IMG/VR virus record: IMGVR_UViG_3300018424_004328
Location: 1-20,325 of that record
DNA length: 20,325 bases
Source of the DNA: a virus
Direction: 5' to 3' (one strand)
This document shows positions 1 to 18,616 of the stretch, one piece after another. A program made the position numbers and the translations under genes. The notes below the pieces were generated by a model. It saw only the letters and a list, made by a program, of their open reading frames with translations, made no database searches and was not told where the DNA came from. Every line of letters starts with the position of its first letter. Position 1 is the first letter of the stretch.

Positions 1-324
1 AACTACTTCGTCAACTGTGTGGTCTTTCATATACTTCTTAAATTCTGGATAGATACTTGCATAGGTATCGCAACCTGTATGCACAATAGGTAAATCTTCA
101 AACTTATTTACCTTGTCTAAAATACCATCATCAAGTAATTGTTTTACTTCTGGATTATACTTAATACCTTGTTCTAGTTTTTCTGCTCTATTAGGGTGCT
201 TGTCTAGACCAAAGTTCATACAACGAAAGTTACAACCAAATGTACGCAAGAAAACAGAAGGTACGCCAACAAAACGTCCTTCGCCTTGTACACTATAAAA
301 TGCTTCACTATATCGTAACTTCAT
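1..324 (-). CDS. queE: 7-carboxy-7-deazaguanine synthase QueE, radical SAM (N-terminal 108 aa; runs off the window)
   Basis: QueE converts 6-carboxy-tetrahydropterin to 7-carboxy-7-deazaguanine, the committed radical-SAM step of preQ0 synthesis. The first residues, FYSVQGEGRFVGVPSVFLRT at 9-28, match the family's opening strand, and CNFRC (Cys31, Cys35) follows, with GCDTYAS at 84-90. Canonical QueE has CX3CX2C-D-T; here the third cysteine with its D-T (Cys85) lies about 49 residues after the second, so the cluster loop seems to carry an insertion. The ATG is preceded by GAGGAG and overlaps the stop of the upstream membrane-protein gene by one base (TAATG). It is the last gene of the folE operon in this window. 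The C-terminal part lies beyond position 1. The family call is firm; the loop interpretation is inference. Confidence 0.9.
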   Translation of the reverse strand, partial: MKLRYSEAFYSVQGEGRFVGVPSVFLRTFGCNFRCMNFGLDKHPNRAEKLEQGIKYNPEVKQLLDDGILDKVNKFEDLPIVHTGCDTYASIYPEFKKYMKDHTVDEVV

Positions 325-515
325 TAAACAATCTCCTCTGCAATACCAAGGAACTCAGCAACAGCAAAAAATAATGCTAGTGCTACCACTGATCCTGTGT
401 AAGCGGCTACTAAGCAACCTGCTAAACGTAATCCGCTTTTAATTAAACTTACATAAAAATGTCCTTTGCCTGGATCTTTAGGTGCCGGAACAAATACTTT
501 TTCTGGAATAGGCAT
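324..515 (-). CDS. small membrane protein, 63 aa, unknown function
   Basis: I do not recognise a family. The N-terminal ~28 residues are polar and rich in Pro and Lys; a hydrophobic stretch from about residue 30 to 58, rich in Ala, Val and Leu, looks like one long or two short membrane helices, followed by an acidic end. It sits between folE and queE, overlapping each by a single base (TAATG at both ends), so it is translated with the deazaguanine genes, but nothing in the sequence ties it to the pathway. A CAGGAG lies about 10 nt before the ATG, inside the 3' end of folE. Confidence 0.7.
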   Translation of the reverse strand: MPIPEKVFVPAPKDPGKGHFYVSLIKSGLRLAGCLVAAYTGSVVALALFFAVAEFLGIAEEIV

Positions 516-1198
516 TAGCAGGCAAACTCCTGTTGTAATTTGATATTGTCCATAAATTCTTTCTTAGTACCTGCATCGTCTTTAAAAGCACCTTTTAGTA
601 CTGTAGTTTGTGTTAAACTACTAGTTGCCATAATACCACGATTCTCACAACAACCATGTGTTGCTTGAATATACACACCTAAGTGTTCGGCATCAGTTGC
701 TTTCTGTATTTCACGAGCAATATCATTTGCAAGTTCTTCTTGCAGAGTACCACGTCTAGCACACCATTGTGCAATACGTGTATACTTAGATAGTCCAATA
801 AGTTTATTAGCGGCAATAATACCAATGTATGCTACACCAGTTACTGGTTGATGATGATGTGAACATACACTCTTAAGTTCGCTACGAACTACAAGCATAC
901 CTTCATATCTATCTTCGCTATCATTAGGAAATGCAGTTGCTGGCGGAATTGGATCATAACGTCCTTGCATTAATTCGTTAAAGTACATCTTTGCAAGACG
1001 TCTTGCGGTACCTTTTGAATTAGGATCATTATGACGATCAATTACCAATGTATCAAGAACATTTTCAAATGCTAGTGTAGCCTCTTCAATTAGTTCTTCT
1101 TTATCGCCTTTTTGTAAGACTTCGGAGATGTTGTCACCTGCCCAATAGCGGATGCCAGCATCTTCTAATTTTTGTTTTACTTGTTTACTTTTGCTCAA
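515..1198 (-). CDS. folE: GTP cyclohydrolase I
   Basis: FolE opens the GTP imidazole ring to give dihydroneopterin triphosphate, the first step of both folate and queuosine/7-deazaguanine synthesis. Seen motifs: GTARRLAKMYFNELMQGRY (63-81), the zinc and active-site SVCSHHHQPVTG (111-121), LSKYTRIAQWCARRGTLQEE (136-155) and ATHGCCENRG (179-188), which carries the second zinc cysteine. At 227 codons it is of normal bacterial length. The start is TTG, not ATG: the only good Shine-Dalgarno, GGAGAGATAAA, ends right before TTG at 1196-1198 and no in-frame ATG lies nearby. A perfect sigma70-type promoter stands 45 nt upstream. Co-transcription with queE points to deazaguanine rather than folate, though folate supply for thymidylate synthesis is possible. 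Confidence 0.95.
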   Translation of the reverse strand: MSKSKQVKQKLEDAGIRYWAGDNISEVLQKGDKEELIEEATLAFENVLDTLVIDRHNDPNSKGTARRLAKMYFNELMQGRYDPIPPATAFPNDSEDRYEGMLVVRSELKSVCSHHHQPVTGVAYIGIIAANKLIGLSKYTRIAQWCARRGTLQEELANDIAREIQKATDAEHLGVYIQATHGCCENRGIMATSSLTQTTVLKGAFKDDAGTKKEFMDNIKLQQEFAC

Positions 1199-1242
1199 TT
1201 TATCTCTCCGAGTTATAGACGTGGATGTCTAATATAGTTTAC

Positions 1243-1271
1243 ATTATATACTTTATTTAGGTTTTTGTCAA
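1243..1271 (-). promoter_or_regulatory. sigma70-type promoter for folE-queE
   Basis: On the minus strand TTGACA (1266-1271) is separated by exactly 17 nt from TATAAT (1243-1248), both full consensus. The start of transcription would fall near 1236, about 38 nt before the folE TTG. This gap of 91 nt between folE and the upstream gene also holds an 11-nt palindrome GTATATTATAC (1272-1282) and a CTAAATA box in the spacer. Confidence 0.85.
1254..1260 (-). promoter_or_regulatory. possible late-promoter box CTAAATA
   Basis: CTAAATA (minus strand) lies in the 17-nt spacer of the folE promoter. T4 late promoters use TATAAATA at -10; this differs by one or two bases. The same seven bases occur in the gaps before the clamp gene and before the 216-aa gene at 19168. 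Function is inferred only. Confidence 0.3.
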
Positions 1272-1289
1272 GTATATTATACACGAATA

Positions 1290-1499
1290 TTAAAAATATT
1301 TGTTCAATACTTCTAACTGATCATGATATTCTGCAATAACTTTCAGTTCTTTTTCAATGGCTTCCAAAACGTCCGGATGCTCACCTACGCCTGCTGAATT
1401 TTTCAAATACACTTCTACATTCATTGCGTGTTTGGCAATGTGTCCTTTTGCGTGTTCTTTGATTGCTTCAATCATGTTTTCTCTGTTATATTCTGGCAT
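1290..1499 (-). CDS. conserved small phage protein, 69 aa, unknown function
   Basis: I do not recognise a named family. The protein is predicted mostly helical (EAIKEHAKGHIAKHAMNVEV, then two amphipathic stretches around residues 40-67), has no membrane segment or signal peptide, and contains four histidines in its first 40 residues. An AAGGAAAAACA sits just before the ATG. It is the last gene of the block that starts at the HIT-gene promoter, 12 nt downstream of the SGNH-like gene; the folE promoter follows it. Confidence 0.65.
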   Translation of the reverse strand: MPEYNRENMIEAIKEHAKGHIAKHAMNVEVYLKNSAGVGEHPDVLEAIEKELKVIAEYHDQLEVLNKYF

Positions 1500-1511
1500 T
1501 GTTTTTCCTTT

Positions 1512-2363
1512 CTACTTAAATTGGTCTTTCATATAGTCTGTGCCAATAATTTGATGAATATCAACATCATAATGTTCATCATCAATTGTTTTGGTTCCTA
1601 CATTAATATCTTTGTGTTGTAGAAACCAATCTTCTACGTTATCTTTTGCAACTTCAACCAAATCAAAATTAAAATAATCATTTAAGTTGTCTGGAATCCA
1701 AGTCCATTTGTTTAACGCAAAAATTTTCAGTTTCGCATTGTTATTGCGACAAAGTTCTTGTAAGATATATAGTTCTTTTAAAAACTCACGTTGTGCTTTT
1801 AGGTTCATTAACTCCATCCAAGTCTTTACAGTCATGTATGGTTGTGTTCTTAGATCGGGATCGCCCATCATAAACCTTGGATGAAATTTAACTGTAAATT
1901 GACAATTTTTTTGGAAGTCTTGAGCATAACTTTGCATAGGTATATCAAATACATCTTGTGCTTCGTTGTGTATTCGTTTAATCCAGCAATCAATATTTCC
2001 TTTTGTAGTTTCTAATTCATATAGTTCATCTAAAGGAATCATCTTTTCGTAGTGTTGTGGGTACTGCATACATAGTCTAAAACGATTCCAATATGTTTGT
2101 TGTACAACTACTTCTTCAATATCGTCATACGTTTTAAAAAGATGTGAAAGCCATTCGCTATATTCCCACCAGCCGTTTGATGGATTTGCAAAGATGGCAC
2201 CATCTTTACCTTTGCTGTTAATATAAAACTCTGCCCAGTTGTTGTCGTTCCATTTACCAGAAAACTTCCAGTTTTCTAAATTCCAGTCTTGTTCATTAGG
2301 AGGCAAGTCGCCAATATGGTAACCTGATGTATGACTACACCCTAGTGCAACAATTCTACTCAT
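1512..2363 (-). CDS. SGNH/GDSL-hydrolase-like protein, 283 aa
   Basis: The N-terminal strand RIVALGCSHTSGYHIGD has the form of SGNH block I (a serine in G-x-S-x-x-x-G after a hydrophobic strand), and a late Asp/His-containing segment (DDEHYDVDIHQIIG) could supply the Asp-His pair. Such proteins are esterases or acetylhydrolases acting on lipids, sugars or peptidoglycan; the phage substrate is unknown. It is rich in Trp and Tyr, with no signal peptide. I take ATG at 2361-2363, which overlaps the HIT stop as TAATG with GGGAG ten bases upstream; a TTG three codons earlier is the alternative. The fold assignment rests mainly on block I, so it is moderate. Confidence 0.55.
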   Translation of the reverse strand: MSRIVALGCSHTSGYHIGDLPPNEQDWNLENWKFSGKWNDNNWAEFYINSKGKDGAIFANPSNGWWEYSEWLSHLFKTYDDIEEVVVQQTYWNRFRLCMQYPQHYEKMIPLDELYELETTKGNIDCWIKRIHNEAQDVFDIPMQSYAQDFQKNCQFTVKFHPRFMMGDPDLRTQPYMTVKTWMELMNLKAQREFLKELYILQELCRNNNAKLKIFALNKWTWIPDNLNDYFNFDLVEVAKDNVEDWFLQHKDINVGTKTIDDEHYDVDIHQIIGTDYMKDQFK

Positions 2364-2782
2364 TAAACACAATCTCCCATATCTTGAAATAAACTTGGTT
2401 GTTTAGGATCTCTTGTTTGGTATTTTTGTTTTGTGGGAAGAACGCCTCGAACACCACCTTTAGGATCGTCCATATCACCATCACGTCTAAAAATTAAATG
2501 AACGTGTGGATACATACAAGTTTGGCCTGCACTAGCACCAATGTTAATACCAATGTTATATCCTGTGATGTCGTTGTCTGCTTCTACATTTTGTTTACCC
2601 ATTGCTAGTGCAAATTTAAAACAACGTAGTATTTCTTCGTCCAAGTTTTCCTTAGGTACAACTAAAGTGTGTCCTGGTGTTACAGGAAATTTGTCGTTAT
2701 ATACTACAAAATCTCTTGTATCATAAACAACATCTGACCACGGTGCTCTACCGTCTGCTTGTGCTTTTTCTAAAGTATCCAT
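2363..2782 (-). CDS. HIT-family nucleotide hydrolase/transferase, 139 aa
   Basis: HIT proteins hydrolyse or transfer nucleoside phosphates such as Ap4A or AMP-lysine. The fold is clear: DFVVYNDKFPVTPGHTLVVP (24-43), the mid-helix region, NIGINIGASAGQTCMYPHVH (76-95) and PKGGVRGVLP (107-116), whose GGVRG is typical. The histidine triad reads Y91-P-H93-V-H95-L-I-F-R, so the first His of HxHxH is Tyr while the presumed nucleophile (middle His) and third His remain. Length is usual for the family. Its own consensus promoter lies about 60 nt upstream inside the previous gene; the SD is AAGGTG. Confidence 0.88.
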   Translation of the reverse strand: MDTLEKAQADGRAPWSDVVYDTRDFVVYNDKFPVTPGHTLVVPKENLDEEILRCFKFALAMGKQNVEADNDITGYNIGINIGASAGQTCMYPHVHLIFRRDGDMDDPKGGVRGVLPTKQKYQTRDPKQPSLFQDMGDCV

Positions 2783-2783
2783 A

Positions 2784-3479
2784 TTATTTCACCACCTTAA
2801 TTAATCGTTTTGGTCTAAGTTTAAGTGCTCGACGCATTAAGTTTATTATACCACCTTTTTTAAACTGTGTCAAGTAGTCTTTTCGTTCAAGTTCTTTTAT
2901 AACTTCTGGGGTAAGTTCACACTCAACCAATTTAATATTTTCAGTTAATTTTGGTGTAGTAAACTTAACATAACATAGTGGGTCTCCTCTTTTTATTTCT
3001 AAAGTTTCACCAACTTTATTAAAAACATATCCCCAACTAATACTTCTAATCCAACTATGTATATTGTAACTACCGCCTACAACACCATCTTTATAATCAT
3101 TTCGATGTAAGAAAGGCGGAGTAATTTCCATCAAGCAAGGTTCGTCTGCAATAAACAAGTATCTTAAATTAAATTGAAACATAGGTTTATTTAGATCATA
3201 CATATCATTACTATTATGAAATGTAACTAAACTTTGCAAGTGTTGTGTATCTACTTCGTCGCTGTTAATTTCAATACCGTCTTTGGTACTTGTAGCAGTA
3301 AAGTTAACAGGACTTTTTAGAACATAATAAGAGTTATACCAAGAAGCAAACGATGGGCAATCAATTACACCTCGTTTATTGTAGTCTTTATTCTTTACTG
3401 TTAACTTAGGTAGTTTTTCAGGTTCTAGAATTAATAACTCTGGAATAGGACCTGTCCAACACCAACCGACTGTAGTCAT
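2784..3479 (-). CDS. conserved phage protein, 231 aa, unknown function
   Basis: No named family recognised. The sequence is beta-rich with many aromatic residues (VGWCWTGPIPELL near the start, SIRSISWGYVFN-like core at about 140-160) and a basic C-terminus (RRALKLRPKRLIK). No signal peptide or membrane helix is apparent. The start is placed at ATG 3477-3479 because it has GCAGGAG at five bases and overlaps the upstream stop as TAATG; an upstream start nine codons earlier would read into the neighbouring gene. The 3' end contains the HIT promoter. Confidence 0.65.
   Translation of the reverse strand: MTTVGWCWTGPIPELLILEPEKLPKLTVKNKDYNKRGVIDCPSFASWYNSYYVLKSPVNFTATSTKDGIEINSDEVDTQHLQSLVTFHNSNDMYDLNKPMFQFNLRYLFIADEPCLMEITPPFLHRNDYKDGVVGGSYNIHSWIRSISWGYVFNKVGETLEIKRGDPLCYVKFTTPKLTENIKLVECELTPEVIKELERKDYLTQFKKGGIINLMRRALKLRPKRLIKVVK
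2845..2873 (-). promoter_or_regulatory. intragenic sigma70-type promoter for the HIT gene
   Basis: Minus-strand TTGACA (2868-2873), 17 nt, TATAAT (2845-2850): a full consensus match inside the last codons of the 231-aa gene. Transcription from about 2838 would give a leader near 56 nt before the HIT ATG at 2782. Confidence 0.75.
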
Positions 3480-4252
3480 TAAAACTCCTGCTTGTAAAAA
3501 TAGCAATAGTAACCTTTGCCGTTAGTATCGCCACCGTCGTTGCTTAATTCTTCACCATCATACTTTATAGCATATACAAGATCTTCACCATTAGGTGCTT
3601 CGCCAATACAGAACTTTAATTTTTTTGGATCAAACAATCCAGGTGTAGTAAATCCTGCATCGAAGAATGTGCCTTTTTCTGCACTATAAAATTGACAAAT
3701 ATAATCACCCTTTTCAGGATATCTATCTCCATAATCGTGATTGTCATCGTAGCATTCTACATATTCATCATCAGTAGAAAACTTTTCTGATGTTTCTTCC
3801 ATCCACTCACTTAGGTCTTGTCCTTCAACAATATCTTCAATAAACTTTGAACGATACTCATCACTCTCTACTTTTTCGATAGTAAGATATGCACCATCAA
3901 GTGTTGGCCCCCATGTATGATCAAACTCGTCAAGCGGTTCATACCAACTAGCACCTACTTCGCCTGTATCATCGTGCATGAACATTGCTTCTTTAGGAAT
4001 GTCTTTTGCTTTAACTTCTTCGTAGTGATCATCTTCATTTACTTCTTTTACTGATTTATCTTCAGCACTTGTAATGTAATGAATGGCATCGCTGTCACCA
4101 TGATCTTTTGTATGTGGATACCAAAAATCAAATGCTTCTTTTGAAATACGCATATATGAACATTCGGCACCATAACCACTTAATGAAAGTCTATAGTGAT
4201 GTGGACCTTTTATTTCTTCAACTAGTTCTTGTTTTTCTTCTGAAGTAGCCAT
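3479..4252 (-). CDS. acidic conserved phage protein, 257 aa, unknown function
   Basis: No family recognised. The protein is strongly acidic (long runs of Asp and Glu, e.g. around residues 105-175) and aromatic, and looks soluble. N-terminal GPHHYRLSLSGYGAECSYMR and C-terminal GKGYYCYFYKQEF segments look like beta strands. Extreme acidity in phage proteins sometimes goes with DNA mimicry, but no evidence here requires it. An AAGGAAAAAGATA precedes the ATG, which overlaps the upstream stop as TAATG. Confidence 0.65.
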   Translation of the reverse strand: MATSEEKQELVEEIKGPHHYRLSLSGYGAECSYMRISKEAFDFWYPHTKDHGDSDAIHYITSAEDKSVKEVNEDDHYEEVKAKDIPKEAMFMHDDTGEVGASWYEPLDEFDHTWGPTLDGAYLTIEKVESDEYRSKFIEDIVEGQDLSEWMEETSEKFSTDDEYVECYDDNHDYGDRYPEKGDYICQFYSAEKGTFFDAGFTTPGLFDPKKLKFCIGEAPNGEDLVYAIKYDGEELSNDGGDTNGKGYYCYFYKQEF

Positions 4253-4455
4253 TATCTTTTTCCTTGATTATTAATACAAACTGCTTGTGTTCCAGGTGGA
4301 AAATATTCAGTACCTGTGCCTAGTTCGTTTAGTAAAATATCACGACCTATAAAGCACTCTTCCATAGTGTCAAACTCGTAGTATGCTTCGATATAAGGCT
4401 CATCGTAACCTGCTTGGGCATTAAACATTATATTGATAAAAACTAAAAACCACAT
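4252..4455 (-). CDS. small exported protein with signal peptide, 67 aa
   Basis: Starting at ATG 4453-4455 the protein opens with a short hydrophobic segment and an A-x-A-like site (MWFLVFINIMFNAQA/GYDEP), a plausible Sec signal peptide with cleavage after residue 15. The mature ~52 residues hold two cysteines (about residues 34 and 59) that could form a disulphide in the periplasm. This start overlaps the upstream PRTase stop as TAATG; the longer reading from 4494 would extend 40 bases into that gene and bury the signal peptide. No family recognised. Confidence 0.6.
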   Translation of the reverse strand: MWFLVFINIMFNAQAGYDEPYIEAYYEFDTMEECFIGRDILLNELGTGTEYFPPGTQAVCINNQGKR

Positions 4456-5000
4456 TAGTATTGACCAACATTTTCCCAAGGATAAACAAGCCAAACATCT
4501 TCTTCAAACTTATTAACCGTGTCGCAATGATAGTTAACACACCCATCAAACTTTGATGAAAGGTTATCTGTTAATACTGCGAAACGAACGTTATTACCCC
4601 ATACCTTCTCCCATTTAGGATCGTTAGGCAAACAACCCGAACGCCAGTCGTCCTTGATCCAATTAAATGTAGCACCAGTATCGTTGATATCGTCTACAAT
4701 AAGAATTTTCTTTTCTAGTGGTCCGCCTGTAACACGGTCTTCTTCTTTTTCACGATATCCAAAGGCATCTTCTGCCATCCAAAAATTGCTTTCACTTTCT
4801 CTGTTATCATCACGCAGGCTTACCTTAAGTGCTTCGCAACGAATGCCTGTCATGTTACTAATAATAGTAGCAGGTACATTACCGCCTCGTGTAATACCTA
4901 CAATGTAATCAGGCTTCCAATTATCATAATACATTTGTAAAACAATGTTATTACACATACGTTCTACATCTGCCCAACTGTAATATTTCTTTTTAATCAT
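4455..5000 (-). CDS. type I phosphoribosyltransferase, 181 aa
   Basis: Type I PRTases join PRPP and a nucleobase, or the reverse. The PRPP loop is textbook: ILIVDDINDTGATF at 99-112, with YIVGITRGGNVPA at 32-44 as the first conserved loop (as in xanthine/guanine PRTases) and a C-terminal aromatic region. Closest known types are hypoxanthine/xanthine PRTases in purine salvage. AGAGGAAATCATC precedes the ATG, which overlaps the upstream oxygenase stop as ATGA. Given the nearby deazaguanine genes, handling of a modified purine is conceivable but unsupported. Base specificity cannot be read from sequence. Confidence 0.87.
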   Translation of the reverse strand: MIKKKYYSWADVERMCNNIVLQMYYDNWKPDYIVGITRGGNVPATIISNMTGIRCEALKVSLRDDNRESESNFWMAEDAFGYREKEEDRVTGGPLEKKILIVDDINDTGATFNWIKDDWRSGCLPNDPKWEKVWGNNVRFAVLTDNLSSKFDGCVNYHCDTVNKFEEDVWLVYPWENVGQY

Positions 5001-6166
5001 GATGATTTCCTCTTGAAGTTACCGCTAATAGAATATCTATCCTTTCCTGATAAATTTTTTCCTGTGTAGTGCGGTATGCTACTAGGAAAAATAAACATCG
5101 TCCCTGTGCTTGGGTGTACAGTCTTTTCATATGATTCTGTATTTGCAAATAGTTTAAAATGCAGATCACCTTGATTGTCAAGTACACGTGGATAATATAC
5201 AAAAGATATATCACTACCGTGATGATTATGAAAATTAGTACTACCGTTTGGCTCAGTTTTATGAACCCAAATACCTGTTAGTTCTAAATCATCTCCATAG
5301 TACTCTTGTACAGTTCTTTCTAGTTCTGCTTGTAAATGTGTGCAACCTGCAGAACTAGGATAAACTAAATCTTCGTAATGTGTGTCATTAGGGTCATTAT
5401 CAATTCTGTTATCACAAACTTCAATTTCTTCAACGATTTTATCGTGAATAACATTTGTAATAGCAGTTTCTAGTACATCAATTCTAGCAACAGTATGTAC
5501 GGTTTCTTTTTGAGGCATAGGAGGAACATACTCTTTTGTCCAAGGATAGGTTTCTGGATATCCCATTCTAATAGCACCTTCTCCTTTACCATGCCTATCT
5601 GGTTCGTATTTTACAAATTTAAATGTAGGCGTAAATCTATGTTCATTCCTTAAAGGAGTAGCAGTATGTAGGATATTGCTTTTCCAAATAAGCATACGTC
5701 CTGGAATAGGAGGTATTGCCCAAATAGTTGGATAGTCGCCTGTTCCTTCTAAGTTACCTTTTTCTTGTTTGTTAATAATAAACTTAGTTTCGCCACCGTC
5801 ATTGATATCCCAGTTATTATTTGCATAAAACATAAATGTCCAAGCATCATCGTTTTCGTCATCTACATGATAATATGCTTGTTCTCTTGGAGCAAAAATG
5901 TTTGCGTGTGATCTTTTTAAAATACAACCATGAACCTCTGGTACATACTTTTCACAAAACTCCCATAAAGCATGGAATATTTTTGTGCCTAAGTAATCAC
6001 CAGTACTCATTCCAGTTGGCGGTAAGTCAACATTATCAACTTCACCATACATATATAACATATTCTTAACGTCTAAAACAAGTTCGTTAAGGTGTGGCGG
6101 CGACCACACGTCATCAAAAATTTTCATTCTACCATCTAGTAGAGTTTGTACTTTAGGCTCCTGCAT
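4997..6166 (-). CDS. two-domain 2-oxoglutarate/Fe(II) oxygenase, 389 aa
   Basis: Two dioxygenase domains appear in tandem. Domain 1 (about 1-195) is prolyl-4-hydroxylase-like: H100-V-D102 as the first iron ligands, NDGGETKFI, then GRMLIWKSNILHTATPL with H167 and R177 for the 2OG carboxylate. Domain 2 (about 270-389) resembles the PF13759 group: NFHNHHGSDISFVYY at 311-325, GDLHF, GTMFIFPSSIPHYTG with H366, and R377. A roughly 70-residue linker separates them. The substrate could be a protein, small molecule or nucleic-acid base. Start M1 has only a weak GAAAG ahead and overlaps the upstream cupin by 14 bases; M14 is an alternative. Confidence 0.85.
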   Translation of the reverse strand: MQEPKVQTLLDGRMKIFDDVWSPPHLNELVLDVKNMLYMYGEVDNVDLPPTGMSTGDYLGTKIFHALWEFCEKYVPEVHGCILKRSHANIFAPREQAYYHVDDENDDAWTFMFYANNNWDINDGGETKFIINKQEKGNLEGTGDYPTIWAIPPIPGRMLIWKSNILHTATPLRNEHRFTPTFKFVKYEPDRHGKGEGAIRMGYPETYPWTKEYVPPMPQKETVHTVARIDVLETAITNVIHDKIVEEIEVCDNRIDNDPNDTHYEDLVYPSSAGCTHLQAELERTVQEYYGDDLELTGIWVHKTEPNGSTNFHNHHGSDISFVYYPRVLDNQGDLHFKLFANTESYEKTVHPSTGTMFIFPSSIPHYTGKNLSGKDRYSISGNFKRKSS

Positions 6167-6644
6167 CTTTTTCTTTCAAATACTCCTCATTATGGATCCA
6201 ACGATATCCTTCGTTTCTAACCCAACGCATAAATCCCCATTCTTGAACTTTACGTCCCATAAAGAATAAACTCCAACAAGGGATTTCATTTCCGTTTTCA
6301 TCCTTTTGTAATTCTAACCAATGCAAGTCGTCTGCTTTACGCATACGAAAATGCCCAGGTCCTCTCCAAACTCTTGTACTACCACATACGTGACCTTCTT
6401 GTGCAAAGATTGGAATATGTTCCCAATAACCACCTTTAAGAATAAAAGTTGCATAACTCCATGGGTGGTCATGTAGTGTGGGCTCATCACTTACAAGAAC
6501 TTTGTGTAGTGTGATATTAAAAGGAAAGTGTTTTCTATTTTTAAGAAATAGGTAATAACGGATAAGGTAAGGCACCTTTCCGTCTCTGTCTGTAATTACT
6601 CGACGCCTGCCGAGTTTGTCCATAATTTTAGAAAGGAACATCAT
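6153..6644 (-). CDS. cupin-like conserved phage protein, about 163 aa
   Basis: The core strand TLHDHPWSYATFILKGGYWE and the later GPGHFRMRKADDLHWLEL resemble the two histidine-bearing motifs of a cupin barrel (H-D-H early, a His in the second motif). Such domains bind a metal and act on sugars or small acids, or only bind ligands. The start is uncertain: three successive ATGs (6647, 6644, 6641) follow TAGGAAAG; the middle one is reported, giving a short overlap with the upstream gene. The longer reading from 6668 overlaps it more and lacks a better SD. Confidence 0.65.
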   Translation of the reverse strand: MMFLSKIMDKLGRRRVITDRDGKVPYLIRYYLFLKNRKHFPFNITLHKVLVSDEPTLHDHPWSYATFILKGGYWEHIPIFAQEGHVCGSTRVWRGPGHFRMRKADDLHWLELQKDENGNEIPCWSLFFMGRKVQEWGFMRWVRNEGYRWIHNEEYLKEKDAGA

Positions 6645-7011
6645 CATCTTTCCTACTGTTATAATCATCCTTACACAAGTTATATATTTCTAAAAACTTT
6701 TCATACTGTAGTTTTAGGGCAGGGTATAACTTAATCATATCTTCGATCTTATATTCTGCCGGCCAATTATCGCCATACTCTCCAAGTGTTATACTAGATG
6801 GAAAATCACCAGTATCAAAAGTTGTATCAAAACTTGTGTCAACATTAACAGTATAAGTGCCATCGCTTTGTACGTAACTTGTATCTATTGGATATGTAGT
6901 TGAATCCATTGTTGAATACGATGTAATTCCGCCTACAGTTGCACCTGGGCCTGTATAGTCAATATTAGTATTATCTAGTGTAATAGTAAATTTCTTTTCA
7001 TCATCGTCCAT
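6628..7011 (-). CDS. conserved phage protein, 127 aa, unknown function
   Basis: Two parts are visible: an N-terminal ~80 residues rich in Thr, Ser, Asp and Gly that look like beta strands or a low-complexity segment, and a helical C-terminal segment (YKIEDMIKLYPALKLQYEKF, then LEIYNLCKDDY) that looks like the conserved part. No catalytic motif, signal or membrane helix. The ATG overlaps the glycosyltransferase stop by 11 bases, so expression is probably coupled. Confidence 0.6.
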   Translation of the reverse strand: MDDDEKKFTITLDNTNIDYTGPGATVGGITSYSTMDSTTYPIDTSYVQSDGTYTVNVDTSFDTTFDTGDFPSSITLGEYGDNWPAEYKIEDMIKLYPALKLQYEKFLEIYNLCKDDYNSRKDDDVPF

Positions 7012-8068
7012 TATTAATCACCTTGTAAAGTGCTTGACCTGAAAAGAAGTCTTCTTTTAATTTTGTAACTTGTTTAAGTAACACTGGAAGATAATTGTCA
7101 TAGTTTTCCATGTAATCAGTAATTCTGTCAACTAAGACTCTTCTATATTTCTTGTAAGCAAAGAAGTCTTCTGTCCATTCGCTTGGATACTTAAATTCAT
7201 CTAATCCCATTTCGCTATAACTTAAACGATCCGGAACCATCGGAATAGCATTAACTAGTGCGCCTTCATACCAACTAATACCAAGTGTTTCTTGTAAGTT
7301 AGCACTAAACACTAGTTTTGCTTTACCTAGTAGGTTATGATACTCATTCTTTGTTAACGATTGTTCTTGACAAATAATAAGTTCATAGTTAGGTAAATGT
7401 TCTTTTAAGTCTCTAAATATTTCTGGTTGTTTCTCTGGAGCAACTCTATGCGGAAACAGAATAATATTTTCTTTAGGCATACCTTTGTAAGAGTCTAAAC
7501 TATTTTTTAGATACTCCATAGGCCATCCTACACGATGAAATTCTGTTTTATAATCGCCATATGCATATGGCTTCAATTGGAATGCTTTTTTAAACATTTC
7601 AATATGGAATTCTGTAGCAAAGAAGTTATCATGATAACATTCTAGCATACTTTGTTCTGCAAGACGTACCCAAGGTTTATCACCAATTAGTCTGCCCAAG
7701 AAATCTTGTGGGTCATAACTACCAGCGTGCCAGAGGCCACCAACGCGAATATTAACACCAAGTAACTCTGCCATGTAACGTAGTTGTATAACTGTAGGAT
7801 TCCAGGCATCGGTATAGAGAAAATAATCACCGTCCTTAATTTTACCATTGCAGAACATCTCTCCAATTTGTTCTAGTTGTTTACTCTTGTAAACATTAGT
7901 ACCGCCAAAGTTAAGAAATGCCCCAGGCGTAGTAGCCTGAGGCGTCTCTCCTCCACTGATAACAGTGACTTCGCTATTAGTAGCACGTTGTAACTGCTTA
8001 GGAAGATGTTCCTTCCACTGCTTAGTATAACGTGTATCTACTGCTTCGATGTCAACTATATAAATCAA
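7001..8068 (-). CDS. GT-B fold glycosyltransferase, 355 aa
   Basis: Hallmarks of a retaining GT-B enzyme (GT4-like): ENIILFPHRVAPEKQPEIF (200-218) as the start of the C-terminal Rossmann domain and ANLQETLGISWYEGALVNAI (256-275) holding an E-x7-E pair (E260, E268), with PMVPDRLSYSEM after it. Donor and acceptor are unknown; phage GTs of this kind modify DNA bases or surface glycans. The start is TTG at 8066-8068: AAGGAAG lies six bases before it, its TTGA overlaps the stop of the small upstream gene, and no ATG is available. It lies two genes downstream of the QueD-like gene. Confidence 0.85.
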   Translation of the reverse strand: MIYIVDIEAVDTRYTKQWKEHLPKQLQRATNSEVTVISGGETPQATTPGAFLNFGGTNVYKSKQLEQIGEMFCNGKIKDGDYFLYTDAWNPTVIQLRYMAELLGVNIRVGGLWHAGSYDPQDFLGRLIGDKPWVRLAEQSMLECYHDNFFATEFHIEMFKKAFQLKPYAYGDYKTEFHRVGWPMEYLKNSLDSYKGMPKENIILFPHRVAPEKQPEIFRDLKEHLPNYELIICQEQSLTKNEYHNLLGKAKLVFSANLQETLGISWYEGALVNAIPMVPDRLSYSEMGLDEFKYPSEWTEDFFAYKKYRRVLVDRITDYMENYDNYLPVLLKQVTKLKEDFFSGQALYKVINNGR

Positions 8069-8271
8069 TGAAACTTCCTTTTATTAAATTTTCGCTTTGG
8101 CTTTCGCGAAATTTTTGAAGGATCTAAATAACTTTGGTAAGTGCGAGACTTTTTATTATAAAGATCTGCTTCGTTAAAAATAAACCCGTTGAAACGGCAA
8201 AAGTCACGATAACTATCTAAGTCATCGAAAATTTGAACCACGTCAGGGCGTTTATCCCAATACTTGCTCAT
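8065..8271 (-). CDS. small basic conserved phage protein, 68 aa
   Basis: No named family. The reading from ATG 8269-8271 (MSKYWDKRPDVVQIFDDLDS) has AGGAAG eight bases ahead; the frame stays open upstream into the QueD-like gene but that part is a shadow. The first half is acidic-aromatic and probably folded (YRDFCRFNGFIFNEADLYN), while the last 20 residues are a basic Lys/Arg tail, which fits nucleic-acid contact. It lies between the QueD-like gene and the glycosyltransferase. Confidence 0.68.
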   Translation of the reverse strand: MSKYWDKRPDVVQIFDDLDSYRDFCRFNGFIFNEADLYNKKSRTYQSYLDPSKISRKPKRKFNKRKFH

Positions 8272-8284
8272 TTTAATGCTTCCT

Positions 8285-8740
8285 TTAGTTTCTAGCATAT
8301 TCAATGTGGGCACCGTTCTCTCCATCTTCGGAGACATCGATGTGGACTTCACGTCCAGGGTGTTTAGCACGGATTTGTTCATACAAATCATCTGCCATCA
8401 TTTCACAACTCTTATAATCTAGTTCAAGGGTTTTCTCCTCATAAAGTTTTTCTAACCATCTTTTGAATTGAATAAATTCGATATCTCTGTCGTTGTGTGT
8501 AACTGAGATAGCGACTTTGAAATGGAATATGTGTCTGTGGGGATATCCCAAAAACGAAACATCATATTCATCACCTGTTGCAAGACTAGGATCATCTAGT
8601 GCCGCAGGATACTTGTGGATTCCTTCCTTTCGGAATGTTACCCAAATCATTCTCTTTGCGTTTTCCATAATTGCCTTTTCGTTATCCTCTCTCATCATTC
8701 TCAACATATAATTGTGATAAGATTCTCTTACTGTTTCCAT
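8285..8740 (-). CDS. queD: QueD/PTPS-like tunnelling-fold protein with altered active site, 151 aa
   Basis: QueD makes 6-carboxy-tetrahydropterin from dihydroneopterin triphosphate, between FolE and QueE. The order of elements fits: a first zinc His in KEGIHKYPAA, FLGYPHRHIFHFKVAISVTH with H-R-H in place of H-G-H, IEFIQFKRWLEKLY as the DFxxLK helix region, SCEMMADDLYEQI as PT-x-E-xx-A, and VSEDGENGAHIEY as the final V-x-E-T strand. However the catalytic Cys four residues before HxH is Leu and the LDH histidine reads LDY. So the zinc site seems kept while the classical catalytic pair is not. The SD is weak (AAAGAAG). The family call is likely; the reaction is uncertain. Confidence 0.7.
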   Translation of the reverse strand: METVRESYHNYMLRMMREDNEKAIMENAKRMIWVTFRKEGIHKYPAALDDPSLATGDEYDVSFLGYPHRHIFHFKVAISVTHNDRDIEFIQFKRWLEKLYEEKTLELDYKSCEMMADDLYEQIRAKHPGREVHIDVSEDGENGAHIEYARN

Positions 8741-8742
8741 TT

Positions 8743-8771
8743 ATTATAACTTCTTTCTTAGTCATTGTCAA
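8743..8771 (-). promoter_or_regulatory. consensus sigma70-like promoter abutting the QueD-like start codon
   Basis: Minus-strand TTGACA (8766-8771), 17 nt, TATAAT (8743-8748). The -10 ends only two bases before the ATG at 8740, so initiation would fall at or inside the start codon; it may give a leaderless or 5'-short transcript serving downstream genes, or be a chance match. Confidence 0.5.
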
Positions 8772-9297
8772 CCGGATTATCGTTTTCATATTTGGACCAA
8801 TCTGTAAATTTTGAACGGTCTTGTAAATCGTGTACCTGATGAATCCAAACACCGGCATTAGTTGCTTTAAAATCTTTGTCGTCAATTTTGATACACGCAT
8901 TATAATTAAGTTGATCAATGTAAGGAATTTTTACACTAATCTGACTAATAAAGTTTGTTTTTTCGTTGTAACCGCTTTCTAACACCCACTCATGATATTT
9001 TACATCATAATCAAGTGTTACATGATATCCTTCTTTAAGCAAACCGTAAATTAGTGTATCCCAAGCCTTGTTAGTTTCTTCTTCACCATTTGGTAAAACT
9101 ATTTCAAAACTTTGATTAGCACCCAAGTAAATATGGTCTACGTGCTTTGCTTTTGCTTGTTCTAATACTTCATCTAACGGACGACATCCAACTACAAATA
9201 GTGTATCCATATCGTATGCTGGTGTTTTCTCTACTTCATATCCAGTAAAATAAACAACATCATCTTTTACAATGCCGTCTGAGTAATCACGTTTCAT
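8758..9297 (-). CDS. conserved phage protein, 179 aa, unknown function
   Basis: No named family. The N-terminal part (DDVVYFTGYEVEKTPAYDMD, then LFVVGCRPLDEVLEQAKAKH) alternates strand and helix like an alpha/beta fold, followed by VDHIYLGANQSFEI and a strand near 95-125; the C-terminus (from about 160) is polar. No membrane helix. It is directly upstream of the QueD-like gene (17-nt gap), and its ATG overlaps the stop of a DUF465-like gene as ATGA, so it may take part in the same pathway; that is inference from position only. Confidence 0.65.
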   Translation of the reverse strand: MKRDYSDGIVKDDVVYFTGYEVEKTPAYDMDTLFVVGCRPLDEVLEQAKAKHVDHIYLGANQSFEIVLPNGEEETNKAWDTLIYGLLKEGYHVTLDYDVKYHEWVLESGYNEKTNFISQISVKIPYIDQLNYNACIKIDDKDFKATNAGVWIHQVHDLQDRSKFTDWSKYENDNPVDND

Positions 9298-9455
9298 GAT
9301 TGTAATCTCTCAATTTCCTGTTTAACTATTAATTTCTCTTGTTTCATTTTCTTAAGTGCCGCATCATCTATATAATTACTATAACCTCTTTGGATCTCTT
9401 TGTCAAGTGTTTTATGCTTGATTATTAGTGCTTCCAATCTGTTTTCTTTAGTCAT
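9294..9455 (-). CDS. DUF465/YdcH-like small coiled-coil protein, 53 aa
   Basis: A gene too short for routine ORF calling. It starts at ATG 9453-9455 with AAGGAGAGCAT ahead and ends in TGA overlapping the next ATG. The pattern matches DUF465: a first helix (LEALIIKHKTLDKEIQRG, with the H-x-x-LD-x-x-I core), a short loop with D, and a second helix (ALKKMKQEKLIVKQEIERL, with the LKxxKLxxKDEI core). Function of DUF465 proteins is unknown; they form helical hairpins. A second such gene lies at 10080. Confidence 0.8.
   Translation of the reverse strand: MTKENRLEALIIKHKTLDKEIQRGYSNYIDDAALKKMKQEKLIVKQEIERLQS
9378..9406 (-). promoter_or_regulatory. possible intragenic promoter before the 179-aa gene
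   Basis: Minus-strand TTGACA (9401-9406), 17 nt, TATAGT (9378-9383), one mismatch. It lies inside the DUF465-like gene, where TTGACA falls on the conserved T-L-D codons, so coding constraint could explain half of it. Confidence 0.4.
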
Positions 9456-9466
9456 ATGCTCTCCTT

Positions 9467-9495
9467 AATATAACATTATAGTGTGTCGTTGTCAA
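9467..9495 (-). promoter_or_regulatory. weak promoter-like element before the DUF465-like gene
   Basis: Minus-strand TTGACA (9490-9495), 17 nt, TATATT (9467-9472), overlapping the 3' end of the oxygenase gene. A second TATAAT sits at 9475-9480 but at the wrong distance. The predicted start would run into the Shine-Dalgarno, which weakens the call. The stretch TATAATGTTATATTAAGGAG closely resembles the clamp-gene leader. Confidence 0.3.
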
Positions 9496-10066
9496 GTCCA
9501 AATCCTTCAATATCGCCATTAAATGCAATACTAATCCTATCTTTCTTGCTCCAATTTTCTTTAACTTGATGATTAATCCAACCTGGGAAAGAAACTAATT
9601 TACCAGTTTGTGGAATAACTGTAAATCTACAACCGTTATAAGAATTGGCCGCTTGAATTAGTTTAGGCGGTAGAGCATAGTCTACGATATTAGATGGGGG
9701 GAATAAAACTAAATCTCCGCAGTTTTGTTCGGCTTGTGGATAGTATACACAGGCTACGAAGTGTTTAGGGTGTAGATGTGTTTCTACAATGTTTGATGTT
9801 TGTTCTAAAGGCTTTTGTACATTTAGCCAAGCCTGTGTGGGTTTAATTTCATACCCATCAACCAAGTTCCACAGTTGTGTGAGCATTTTAAAATGTTCTC
9901 TTACCGCTTCTACTAGCGGTTGAAGAACAGGCTCGGCTAAATTTAAATGATTACTTTGACCTCTGTGCTTAACATTCTTGTATGCAAACTTAATAAGTTC
10001 GTCATTGTTAATGTCGCTAAGGTGCTCGTCTGAGAACGGAGTAGTAAACAAGTCAACTATTGCCAT
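9476..10066 (-). CDS. 2-oxoglutarate/Fe(II) oxygenase (PF13759-like), 196 aa
   Basis: The double-stranded beta-helix motifs of the 2OG-FeII_Oxy_5 type are present: VETHLHPKHFVACVYYP at 94-110 (H97, H99 as likely iron ligands), GDLVLFPPS, then GKLVSFPGWINHQVKENW at 155-172 with H166, and KKDRISIAFN with R177 for 2OG. Family members in marine phages have no proven substrate. A GGAG eight bases before the ATG is a good SD. It lies between two DUF465-like genes downstream of the TGT-like gene. Confidence 0.85.
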   Translation of the reverse strand: MAIVDLFTTPFSDEHLSDINNDELIKFAYKNVKHRGQSNHLNLAEPVLQPLVEAVREHFKMLTQLWNLVDGYEIKPTQAWLNVQKPLEQTSNIVETHLHPKHFVACVYYPQAEQNCGDLVLFPPSNIVDYALPPKLIQAANSYNGCRFTVIPQTGKLVSFPGWINHQVKENWSKKDRISIAFNGDIEGFGLDNDTL

Positions 10067-10079
10067 TCTCTGATCTCCT

Positions 10080-10268
10080 TTAAATTTTATTTTTAAATTT
10101 TAAAATAGCATCTTTTAGTGCTAGTTTGATTTTCTTATGCCTTTGCAAAAGTTCTTTTGAAGTCCATGAACGATCTCCGTCACGTTCCTGTTCCATCTCT
10201 GTAACTTTTTTATCGTAATATTGATGCTCTTCTTCTAAACGTTTTAGTTGCTTATTAGATTTGCTCAT
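10080..10268 (-). CDS. DUF465-like small helical protein, 62 aa
   Basis: Helical hairpin of two charged helices: LKRLEEEHQYYDKKVTEMEQ (8-27) and the later LQRHKKIKLALKDAILKFK, whose H-x-x-x-D and L-x-LKD patterns recall DUF465/YdcH. The loop is longer and more polar than in the 53-aa relative at 9294. It overlaps the 3' end of the TGT-like gene by 14 bases. No function known. Confidence 0.68.
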   Translation of the reverse strand: MSKSNKQLKRLEEEHQYYDKKVTEMEQERDGDRSWTSKELLQRHKKIKLALKDAILKFKNKI

Positions 10269-11799
10269 CTTCTAACTCCTCGAGTTTATGTTCTTGTTCT
10301 TCAGTAAATTCACTGTCACTTGAGTCATCTGAAGTTGTTGTGTCTGCTTCTTCAAATAAATTAGCAAACTGTGTACTAGCATTAACTGTCTTTTTACCAG
10401 TAGCACCTCTAGTGCCAATAACTGACATCCAGAATCTTGAAAATTCTTCTATGACCGCATTCGCTTCGTCTCTGTTGTCAGTTGCAAATATCGCTTCCAC
10501 AACATCTCTAAAAAATAACCTGTCAAAACGTTCTTCGACAAGCATCGCTGGAATTCTGCCTGCGTCATATTCTCTGTTTGCTTCTTGTACTGCATTAATG
10601 TGACTCCATACATTATGACCCATTTGGATCGCATATGAAAAACTATCCCAAGATGTTTTTCCTTCTTTACCTACTTTATTTAGATCGCCTGGTGCATAGA
10701 TACAAACATCTTTGGCTGTTAGTCCTGTTGTAATAGGCGAGTCTTTAAAACTTCCGTGTTTGTTTTCACGTACAAATGCTTGACCAAACGGTGTAAGGTC
10801 TTGTGCTAAACCTTTGTCGTCAATGCTAGGTACCATTCTGTATACCCATTTACTTCTATCTTTTGTTTCAAGTTCACAATAGATTTGACCATTTGCTGTT
10901 GCTAAGAATGGACTAGCACAGTCAAATGTAATTGTAAAGTTTTCGTTATGATGTTTACGAACTGCTCTTTGTACATCAGTTAGTAGTGTTGCCCACTCTA
11001 GTTTACTTGTACCCAAGAAGTGCATAAAGTCATGTTTGCCTTTTTCAAGTAATCCATCAAAACGTAGTGCAACAATACGTTTTAATGCTAGGTGAATATC
11101 ACACATATTCTGACCACCCATTGACCACCCATTAAAGTGATCAGTATACTTTTTAGGATCGCAATAGTCTTTCATTTGCTGATACCAATCTTCTGCATCA
11201 GCATGATTCTCACCTTGTAGTACATTTAAGAATTTACAATTACCATTACGATTTTTCATAAAGTAATCGTTATTAATACGTGTGGCATTTACTGCTTCTT
11301 GGTATGTACTAATACCAGTTGCTTTAACACCTTGTGGACTACGAGCAACCCAAGCCGGAATATCAAGGATCATACCGTAATCCATATATTCGTCCATCCA
11401 ACGTAAAACTTGTTCACGTTTCTTTTTCGCCTTAGGACAGTTAGGATCTTTCCAATCACCTTCCCATACACCTTTACCAATCTGGAATCCTCCAGAGTCG
11501 CCAAGCAACCAACTAGTATTGCGATCTCTGTTTCGGATCATATCTTCTTTAGGTGAGTCTTTGTTAATATCTAATTCAGCGTGACCTGCGGAATACAATG
11601 ACCAATTATATTGAAACATACCGTCATTGCGATTTAACCAGTTCAGACTTTCAACGTCATTAGGAAAGTTACTAGGAATTCTAGTTCTTTCAACATATTC
11701 TTCACGACGCTGTTTACCAATGAATGTAGCATAGAAGCCACTAATCGCTGGTAGGAAGATTGCGTAATCCTTTTGCTGTGCTGTTAAGTCCGTATTCAA
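10255..11799 (-). CDS. dpdA: tRNA-guanine-transglycosylase-superfamily enzyme, DpdA-like, about 514 aa
   Basis: TGT enzymes swap guanine for a 7-deazaguanine; DpdA members do so in DNA. Motifs, numbered from the longer reading: LLGDSGGFQIGKG with DSGGFQ at 105-110, ILDIPAW at 148-154, FLNVLQGENH around 195-203 (TGT V-Q-G), NGWSMGGQ at 227-234, HFLG at 264-267 and TFDCASPFLATANG at 295-308, with Asp297 at the nucleophile position. The tRNA-TGT C-terminal zinc motif is not evident, and the last ~35 residues are an acidic, probably disordered tail. TTG at 11797-11799 is preferred: GGAG stands five bases before it and the upstream TAA just ahead. A TTG four codons earlier (11811) is the alternative. 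FolE, QueD-like and QueE in the same window support DNA deazaguanylation. Confidence 0.82.
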   Translation of the reverse strand: MNTDLTAQQKDYAIFLPAISGFYATFIGKQRREEYVERTRIPSNFPNDVESLNWLNRNDGMFQYNWSLYSAGHAELDINKDSPKEDMIRNRDRNTSWLLGDSGGFQIGKGVWEGDWKDPNCPKAKKKREQVLRWMDEYMDYGMILDIPAWVARSPQGVKATGISTYQEAVNATRINNDYFMKNRNGNCKFLNVLQGENHADAEDWYQQMKDYCDPKKYTDHFNGWSMGGQNMCDIHLALKRIVALRFDGLLEKGKHDFMHFLGTSKLEWATLLTDVQRAVRKHHNENFTITFDCASPFLATANGQIYCELETKDRSKWVYRMVPSIDDKGLAQDLTPFGQAFVRENKHGSFKDSPITTGLTAKDVCIYAPGDLNKVGKEGKTSWDSFSYAIQMGHNVWSHINAVQEANREYDAGRIPAMLVEERFDRLFFRDVVEAIFATDNRDEANAVIEEFSRFWMSVIGTRGATGKKTVNASTQFANLFEEADTTTSDDSSDSEFTEEQEHKLEELEDEQI

Positions 11800-11800
11800 A

Positions 11801-11992
11801 TTATTCTCCAAATGCCTTAAATGCTAAGAGAGGAACAAGCCAAGGATAAACCAAATGCTCAACCAACTCATATACAACCAAAATAGTGAGCAACACGGCC
11901 CATAGTTTTGATGTTTTTGCTTTGTTGCTAACATATTCAAATATCCTCGAATGCCACTTTCCTAAACGTTCTATTATACCTGGTTTCGGCAT
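11801..11992 (-). CDS. small membrane protein, 63 aa, unknown function
   Basis: From ATG 11990-11992 (MPKPGIIERLGKWHSRIFEY) the protein has a basic N-terminal half and a hydrophobic segment at about 30-58 (LWAVLLTILVVYELVEHLVY and onward) predicted as one membrane helix, ending in KAFGE. AAGGAG lies three bases before the ATG and overlaps the clamp stop codon, so translation is probably coupled. A longer reading starting inside the clamp gene is unlikely. No family recognised. Confidence 0.65.
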   Translation of the reverse strand: MPKPGIIERLGKWHSRIFEYVSNKAKTSKLWAVLLTILVVYELVEHLVYPWLVPLLAFKAFGE

Positions 11993-12745: not shown

Positions 12746-13501
12746 TTATATTACATTATATTTAGATTTTTGCGAAAAGTCAAGTTCTTTATTGGTCTCA
12801 ATAAAGTCAAAAATATTAACTTTCGGCTTCCACCCTAAATTCTTTAAGACAGTTATATCGGCTGTATTGTCCATACGTTCATTGTCCTTAGTTGTTTGTT
12901 CAGGATCAATGTTTGCCAATTTAGTTAAATCTGTAAGTGCTACAGACGTTCCTGTACCAATATCAATTATTCCTTTGGTATCTGTTTTGATTAATAGTAG
13001 AATTGCGTTTACAATATCACTGACGTGAATAAAATCTCTTTTATGGTTGGTAACGTAGGGGACATCGTTTCTTAGTAATCGAGGTATAAACATATTGGGC
13101 CTTGTCTGCTTGTTATTATATATAGTTGTAAATCGCATACCTAAACTGTTATCTGGCGCAATTTCTTCCATAACCTTTTTAGTCATCGCATAAGGATTTA
13201 AAAAAGGTTCTTTGGCTGTGCTAGAACTAGCATACAAAATTCTTGTGTTTGGAAAACTTTGAAAAATCTTTTTAGATGCTATAACATTATTTTCCCAAAA
13301 CAGTTTTGGATTATCAATGCTTCTTCGTAGTCCTGATTCTCCGGCAAGATGAATTACTAAATCAACATCAAAGTTTATTTCTAGATCAAGTATATCATTA
13401 CCTTCTAGTCTATCAATACCAATTACAAAATGTTCTTTTACTAACTCTGCATATAGTTCTTGACCTACTAAACCTTTATGTCCTGTTAGTAAAATTTTCA
13501 T
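12746..13501 (-). CDS. NAD(P)-dependent nucleotide-sugar epimerase/dehydratase, 251 aa
   Basis: Extended short-chain dehydrogenase. Cofactor loop G7-H-K-G10-L-V-G13 in MKILLTGHKGLVGQELYAEL, adenosine Asp30, the VIHLAGESG strand, S92-S93-S94 with Y104-x3-K108 as the catalytic triad, and a substrate-binding C-terminal part. At 251 aa it is short for UDP-glucose or dTDP-glucose epimerases (about 310-350), with the C-terminal domain reduced. The exact sugar cannot be read. It could feed the glycosyltransferase at 7001 or alter host glycans. Its ATG overlaps the glycosylase stop as ATGA. Its 3' end carries the clamp promoter. Confidence 0.88.
   Translation of the reverse strand: MKILLTGHKGLVGQELYAELVKEHFVIGIDRLEGNDILDLEINFDVDLVIHLAGESGLRRSIDNPKLFWENNVIASKKIFQSFPNTRILYASSSTAKEPFLNPYAMTKKVMEEIAPDNSLGMRFTTIYNNKQTRPNMFIPRLLRNDVPYVTNHKRDFIHVSDIVNAILLLIKTDTKGIIDIGTGTSVALTDLTKLANIDPEQTTKDNERMDNTADITVLKNLGWKPKVNIFDFIETNKELDFSQKSKYNVI
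12755..12783 (-). promoter_or_regulatory. sigma70-type promoter for the sliding clamp gene
   Basis: Minus-strand TTGACT (12778-12783), 17 nt, TATAAT (12755-12760), one mismatch in the -35. The -35 lies in the last codons of the epimerase gene. A CTAAATA box at 12759-12765 overlaps the -10. Confidence 0.75.
12759..12765 (-). promoter_or_regulatory. possible late-promoter box CTAAATA overlapping the clamp promoter
   Basis: CTAAATA runs directly into TATAAT on the minus strand. The clamp gene may thus have overlapping early and late promoters, as T4 replication genes have several. Inference. Confidence 0.3.
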
Positions 13502-13887
13502 ACTAATTCCTCAGCAATGTATCTTTTTAATTCTTTGTCTTGCACATCTGTAGGTATTTCATTTTTATAAAAAAGTCTATAACTGTCAGAACCGTACTTA
13601 CCAATACCGTATAATTGTGTAGCATCTTCTCCATCCCAATCTTCAAATTGTTCGCTCATTCGATACAGTCTTTCTGCTCGAACACGTTGCATACCTAACG
13701 GCTTTAGCACATCTTCAATTTCTTTTTTAGTAGCATATAGCAAACTACTATGTGTAGGCCAACGTCTAAAGAACTCTGTAAGTACAGGTTTAGTTTGACG
13801 CCTGTTTACCTGATTAAGACATATAACGCCAACCATATGTTGCCATACATTGTCGACTTGCTGTTGAACCATTAGATCATCACGCAT
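13498..13887 (-). CDS. MBD4-like HhH-GPD DNA glycosylase, 129 aa
   Basis: The whole sequence follows the catalytic domain of the eukaryotic mismatch glycosylase MBD4 and related endonuclease III-fold proteins: LNQVNRRQTKPVLTEFFRRW (24-43), EIEDVLKPLGMQRVRAERLY (56-75), LYGIGKYGSDSYRLF (92-106, the hairpin and G-I-G-K-Y) and IPTDVQDKELKRYI, where P112-T-D114 matches the P-E-D catalytic aspartate position of MBD4. No iron-sulphur cluster cysteines are present. It would remove T or U opposite G, or another base lesion. ATG 13885-13887 follows GGAAAGAGATACG and overlaps the cupin stop by eight bases; longer starts would lie well inside the cupin gene. Confidence 0.85.
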   Translation of the reverse strand: MRDDLMVQQQVDNVWQHMVGVICLNQVNRRQTKPVLTEFFRRWPTHSSLLYATKKEIEDVLKPLGMQRVRAERLYRMSEQFEDWDGEDATQLYGIGKYGSDSYRLFYKNEIPTDVQDKELKRYIAEELV

Positions 13888-14209
13888 CGTATCTCTTTCC
13901 ATCAAACACACAAACAAAGTATAATTCTTCATCACCTGCGTGTACACGATGAAATACTCCGTCTTGAATTAGTACTGTATCGCCTGGATAAACACTAAAC
14001 GTTTCATCATCAAGTTGCATATTACCTGTACCTTCGATAAACAAGTAAACTTCTTCTTGACCTTCGTGTTTATGTCCTGTTGTACTTTTATTAGGTCTTA
14101 ATCTAGTACTACTTACAATAAGATTTTTTAATCCTTTATTATCTTTTACAGTATAGCGGTCATCTTGTTTAACAACTTCACCGCCTATATCCCAGTTACC
14201 GAATTTCAT
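13880..14209 (-). CDS. cupin_2-type protein, 109 aa
   Basis: Single cupin barrel: GHKHEGQEEVYLFIEGTG at 45-62 carries the metal-binding H46-x-H48-x4-E53, and YPGDTVLIQDGVFHRVHAGD has the second-motif H87. Proteins of this type include sugar isomerases, oxygenases and plain binding proteins; no more precise call is possible. GGAGTGAAAAA precedes the ATG, which overlaps the exonuclease stop as ATGA. Adjacent DNA glycosylase and epimerase genes suggest sugar or base metabolism, but only by position. Confidence 0.82.
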   Translation of the reverse strand: MKFGNWDIGGEVVKQDDRYTVKDNKGLKNLIVSSTRLRPNKSTTGHKHEGQEEVYLFIEGTGNMQLDDETFSVYPGDTVLIQDGVFHRVHAGDEELYFVCVFDGKRYDA

Positions 14210-18587: not shown

Positions 18588-18616
18588 ATTATATATTCGT
18601 TTGTTCTTAATGTCAA
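18588..18616 (-). promoter_or_regulatory. sigma70-type promoter for dsbA
   Basis: Minus-strand TTGACA (18611-18616), 17 nt, TATAAT (18588-18593), full consensus. The -35 overlaps the stop codon of the upstream oxygenase gene. Predicted start near 18581, about 18 nt before the ATG, leaving the SD on the leader. Confidence 0.85.

Follow-up and report, generated by a model that had tools for sequence, protein, structure and literature searches.

The DNA analysed here, hereafter the window, is a 20,325-bp IMG/VR fragment (IMGVR_UViG_3300018424_004328) from an uncultured marine virus of bacteria. Almost all of its genes are on the minus strand and follow a T4-type DNA polymerase gene. We examined a block of minus-strand genes comprising a TGT/DpdA-like transglycosylase of 518 amino acids (positions 10255-11811), a conserved 179-amino-acid protein with no assigned fold (8758-9297), a QueD-fold (T-fold) protein that we call qdl (8285-8740), a GT-B/GT4-like glycosyltransferase (GT) of 355 amino acids (7001-8068), a xanthine/guanine-type phosphoribosyltransferase (PRT; 4455-5000), the GTP cyclohydrolase I FolE (515-1198) and the N-terminal part of QueE, which is cut by the window end (1-324). 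Two contigs extended the view: G002 (L004) matches the window with 99.88% identity over 20,069 bp, and the 117-kb G001 (L003) does so with 99.88% identity over 15.8 kb and continues on the other side. A preliminary description had read these genes as a set for 7-deazaguanine modification of DNA that includes a DpdA-like transglycosylase but no visible QueC, an outline that our analysis supported.

The transglycosylase and the QueD-fold protein

Sequence searches of Pfam, NCBIfam and the PDB found no match for the transglycosylase (TGT-like protein). Its AlphaFold model, built with an alignment of 53 sequences, had a pLDDT of 91.5 and a pTM of 0.91, and the first 35 PDB matches in a Foldseek search were all TGTs (probability 0.99-1.00, E-values down to 3e-6), with modest TM-scores of 0.30-0.54 by target length. 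Two aspartates of catalytic type, Asp105 in DSGGFQ and Asp297 in FDCASPF, were invariant across the 53 diverse sequences, and the Asp297 motif aligned with FDCVMPTR of Escherichia coli TGT. The CxCxxC zinc site of tRNA TGTs was found in none of these 53 members. Locus census and cultured phages both linked the gene to deazaguanine synthesis genes.

We compared profiles of this family with reference enzymes, E. coli TGT being the sole tRNA TGT reference. The match to DpdA2 of phage nt-1 had an E-value of 4e-10 with a 5-sequence profile and 1e-6 with the 53-sequence profile, and that to E. coli TGT had 9e-4, or 1e-5 under other settings. No similarity to DpdA1 of phage 9g was found (hhalign probability 0.2). 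The nearest reference sequences came from Vibrio phage 2.275.O (2.5e-54) and GR7B (1.7e-10). Profile comparison, with DpdA1 and DpdA2 as the DpdA subfamily references, did not place the protein cleanly in a named DpdA subfamily; we regard it as a family of its own within the TGT/DpdA superfamily, probably acting on DNA. The motifs noted in the preliminary description are of DpdA type, but the protein does not fall within DpdA1 and its kinship to DpdA2 is remote. Relatives with 28-34% identity also occurred, without qdl, in alphaproteobacterial contigs (Sphingomonas, Roseomonas, Azospirillum; L301-L310), and in the Azospirillum contig L301 a GT homologue adjoins the TGT-like relative on the opposite strand.

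The AlphaFold model of qdl (pLDDT 92) is a T-fold, and its best structural matches in Foldseek were E. coli QueD and other PTPS proteins. The family alignment retains H42, H68 and H70 (the last two in an HRH motif at 68-70) and Glu138, presumed to be the zinc triad and the pterin anchor of QueD, respectively. Comparison with E. coli QueD revealed that the catalytic cysteine and the Asp-His dyad are absent throughout the family. Genuine QueD genes were found alongside qdl family members in PA5oct, Phosso and contigs of the same or near-identical phages, and ACP17, phiST and RHph_I1_18 each carry an annotated QueD/PTPS gene with a qdl member nearby. Set against QueD/PTPS (E. coli QueD; PDB 4ntk, 3qn9), qdl therefore has the fold, the presumed histidine triad and the anchoring glutamate in common, but it has lost the catalytic set and coexists with a true QueD, which makes it a family separate from QueD. 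For these reasons we rejected the assignment of 8285-8740 to the QueD step, as made in the preliminary description. In two phages, Bakedbeans and MA9V-3, qdl forms the C-terminal part of a longer open reading frame (L318:6212-7363 and L321:6428-7309, respectively), the N-terminus of which resembles, by eye, an HNH-type insertion in MA9V-3. PDB sequence-profile searches with the TGT-like, qdl and 8758-type families returned nothing useful, and no qdl was found in plasmids. DpdL, a predicted decarboxylase of 7-carboxy-7-deazaguanine (CDG) reportedly described in 2023, is a candidate identity for qdl.

Synthesis genes, conserved partners and the absence of QueC

FolE, QueD and QueE convert GTP to CDG by established chemistry. 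The FolE and QueE assignments of the preliminary description were both borne out. FolE matched PF01227 (E=3.4e-38; 131 bits against a cut-off of 27) and the PHROG GTP cyclohydrolase family (E=1e-44), and the 108-amino-acid QueE fragment matched PHROG QueE (E=1.5e-14), with a full-length open reading frame of 307 amino acids in G002. An alignment with PA5oct, BUCT-ZZ01 and relatives showed that the three radical SAM cluster cysteines are present, in CNFRC and in the GCD motif. In the window protein, an insertion of about 60 residues separates the second cluster cysteine (CNFRC) from the third (GCDTYAS); comparable insertions occur in PA5oct, X1, BUCT-ZZ01 and Ps15 but not in 9g, ACP17 or phiST.

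True QueD genes (PF01242) lie away from the block in G001, where QueD is encoded at position 61392, and likewise in G004, G007, PA5oct and Phosso; of 28 long records, 21 carry one. In many phage QueD proteins CxxxHGY replaces CxxxHGH and the first zinc histidine is mostly missing (L102-L104, L113-L184, L313, L314), so that two of the three zinc ligands are altered. A "split QueD", with qdl supplying zinc ligands to the HGY-type protein, was initially striking; we rejected it because Ps15 and PhiXhv-12 have an HGY QueD without qdl and because L130, L148 and G039 combine qdl with an HGH QueD.

In IMG/VR, at least 597 stretches contain a gene for a relative of the TGT-like protein. Profile annotation of 159 further loci gave the arrangement TGT-like, 8758-type, qdl, GT, FolE, (PRT), (QueD) and QueE, with no QueC. 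For a dereplicated census we clustered the TGT-like relatives at 72% identity, which left 40 clusters with 6 kb of downstream sequence; GT was present in 37, qdl in 33, the 8758-type gene in 30, FolE in 25 and PRT in 13. At a 50% identity threshold eight groups were left, with qdl and GT each in six. Given the number of relatives and the recurrence of the same neighbours at most fetched loci, the gene set goes far beyond chance. The block also occurs in cultured phages: with the TGT-like gene in PA5oct, with DpdA2 in ACP17 and X1, with DpdA2 and two GT-like genes in BUCT-ZZ01, and, in Phosso, with a TGT gene that lies outside the block in the same genome. These recurrences make it very improbable that unlinked auxiliary genes, such as FolE for folate and QueE boosting host queuosine, became neighbours by chance in one phage clade: FolE does also serve folate synthesis and the window genes are spread over 11.8 kb, but the same set appears in unrelated phage groups with differing surrounding genes.

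Among PDB sequences, the GT family profile matched a putative glycosyltransferase (E=2e-4). The PF00534/PF13692 cut-offs were exceeded by homologues in X1 and BUCT-ZZ01 but not by the window GT itself. In each of the 19 GT-bearing phage records, from about five lineages, a TGT-like or DpdA2 gene is present too, and FolE and QueE were both found in 10 out of 10 phages tested, with at least one from each of these lineages. In BUCT-ZZ01 a second GT4-like protein is encoded directly upstream of DpdA2 (L311:7665-9008). The 8758-type protein, which has homologues in PA5oct and ACP17 and 22 invariant columns in 32 sequences, had no detectable relatives with known function; a 143-amino-acid protein of X1 was considered as a family member and found no support. 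PRT (NCBIfam xanthine PRT, E=7e-11) is a recurrent partner that is also present in the blocks of PA5oct (gp163) and BUCT-ZZ01 (UTS52039).

QueC yielded nothing over the cut-off in G001, G002 or other relatives, the phage genome being incomplete, and none in BUCT-ZZ01, Bakedbeans, Ahp1 or MA9V-3. The absence of a visible QueC noted in the preliminary description thus persisted when the search was extended to near-identical and other long contigs. The only one of 46 long records with QueC over the cut-off was Vibrio phage 2.275.O, which is without qdl and GT; there the TGT-like gene stands in a cluster with QueF, YhhQ, QueC and FolE (L083:11908-19000), suggesting that members of the TGT-like family can serve the preQ0/preQ1 branch as well. 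The qdl family, for its part, is tied to QueC-less phages. ACP17 and Ps15 are related phages (PMC9025141). Ps15 has the order FolE...QueC-DpdA2-QueE, without GT or qdl, whereas the equivalent locus of ACP17 reads QueD-FolE-8758type-DpdA2-GT-qdl-QueE, without QueC. Judging from this swap, QueC seems to be replaced by qdl, either alone or together with GT.

The preliminary description had considered distinctive the mix of the deazaguanine set with a glycosyltransferase, four 2-oxoglutarate (2OG)-Fe(II) oxygenase domains and an MBD4-like glycosylase. All of these are there, the oxygenase domains in three genes (two at 4997-6166, one each at 9476-10066 and 18613-19149) and the HhH-GPD (MBD4-like) glycosylase at 13498-13947, but only GT proved to be a conserved partner. 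The dereplicated census found no 2OG oxygenase downstream and, within 4 kb on either side, one in 1 of 39 dereplicated relatives, and the glycosylase was seen once; we therefore rejected both as parts of the system and regard them as passengers. An NAD-dependent sugar epimerase (12746-13501, minus strand; PF01370, E=1e-19) is an occasional partner, found in 14 of the 40 clusters.

Predicted pathway and alternative explanations

Taking these results together, we consider it slightly more probable than its negation that the block specifies a QueC-independent pathway of 7-deazaguanine DNA modification in which CDG would be altered by qdl, inserted by the TGT-like enzyme and then glycosylated. As judged by family membership, FolE, QueE and QueD, the last encoded elsewhere in the phage or by the host, would make CDG from GTP. 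In place of QueC, qdl would act on CDG, by decarboxylation or another change at C7, as the QueC swap and the retained binding site suggest. The fold and conserved residues of the TGT-like enzyme point to a base exchange in which its two aspartates would serve to swap guanine in phage DNA for the modified base. DpdA2 provides a precedent, as the DNA of phage nt-1 contains dPreQ0 (PMC6884629). Because GT is co-inherited with the block, it would be predicted to add a sugar to the inserted deazaguanine, and PRT may salvage the guanine released by the exchange. Protection from restriction enzymes would be the most likely purpose.

Several observations weigh against this pathway. If qdl removed the carboxyl group, GT may be left without an obvious handle at C7 and hence without a clear acceptor, in which case qdl would do something else or GT would use another position. 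In phiST, MA9V-3, D479 and Ahp1, qdl lies next to a different type of TGT-like barrel and GT is missing; GT is therefore not an obligatory partner. FolE and QueE in the window are 6-8 kb away from qdl and GT, and in the PhiXhv group, whose GT homologues are the most divergent, these lie a long way from the TGT gene. Vibrio phage D479 combines qdl with a partial QueC-like match. The TGT-like protein may also have a tRNA substrate, as its similar profile distance to DpdA2 and E. coli TGT leaves room for one when sequence alone is considered.

The alternative that survives best, which we hold to be unlikely, shares the pathway up to the base exchange without glycosylation of the deazaguanine: qdl, possibly DpdL, would process CDG, the DNA would receive 7-deazaguanine or CDG, and GT would modify another DNA base, lipopolysaccharide or protein. 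The GT-less qdl loci of phiST and the three phages named with it fit this explanation, and dCDG and dDG are reportedly natural phage bases, according to a 2023 account. It fits less well with the presence of DpdA-type genes in all 19 cultured GT-bearing records and with the finding that GT adjoins qdl, TGT or DpdA2 in several lineages that are unrelated to one another.

Action of the TGT-like enzyme on tRNA appears improbable. The block would then make a tRNA modification, possibly a glycosylated queuosine-like base, that aids phage translation; glycosylated queuosine does occur in tRNA, and in profile comparison the enzyme resembles E. coli tRNA TGT nearly as much as it does DpdA2. Yet the tRNA-TGT zinc site is missing from the family, the nucleophile motif D-x-A/S-S is like that of DpdA (D-S-S) and unlike DCVMPTR, DpdA2 occupies the place of the TGT-like gene in ACP17, X1 and BUCT-ZZ01, the TGT-like gene closely follows that of the DNA polymerase, and the block is without QueC or QueF.

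If glycosylation does follow base exchange, the phage DNA would contain a sugar-capped, CDG-derived deazaguanine, made through a repurposed QueD-fold enzyme, a distinct TGT-like family and a dedicated GT4-type glycosyltransferase, with the cassette shared by several jumbo phages in culture and by aquatic phages in their hundreds; we propose this fuller picture tentatively, as somewhat less than an even prospect. Sugar-capped deazaguanine would then add to the phage DNA disguises, which include sugar-capped cytosine and thymine bases, and would bear on restriction, type IV defences and sequencing. The proposal gives "hypothetical" proteins of PA5oct, Paride, Callisto, ACP17 and BUCT-ZZ01 a testable function; it also predicts that an abundant group of uncultured marine T4-like phages has a modified base.

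Comparison with known systems

Deazaguanine phages and DpdA are already known; sugar-capped deazaguanine may represent a DNA disguise that has not been described before. We found no description of glycosylated deazaguanine in DNA in the open-licence literature, to which our search was confined, and no report of DNA modification in PA5oct-type phages in the literature checked. Phages with DpdA or DpdA2 (9g, CAjan, nt-1; Hutinet 2019, PMC6884629) have FolE, QueD, QueE, a TGT-superfamily enzyme and a presumed guanine exchange in common with the block, which by contrast is without QueC or an amidotransferase, and has a divergent TGT-like enzyme and the additional qdl and GT.

Cellulophaga phage phiST-type systems share FolE, QueD, QueE, a qdl homologue, a TGT-like barrel and the lack of QueC; they differ in a shorter and different TGT-like barrel, in having no GT and in a qdl that is only 35% identical. 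Their product is said to be dCDG or dDG (2023). The loci of ACP17, X1 and BUCT-ZZ01 have GT, qdl, FolE, QueE and the absence of QueC in common with the window, but their transglycosylase is DpdA2 and not the window family. As in the glucosylated hydroxymethylcytosine of T4 and other sugar-modified phage DNA, a phage glycosyltransferase would presumably decorate a modified base after replication; the presumed acceptor here, unlike hydroxymethylcytosine, would be a purine analogue derived from base exchange.

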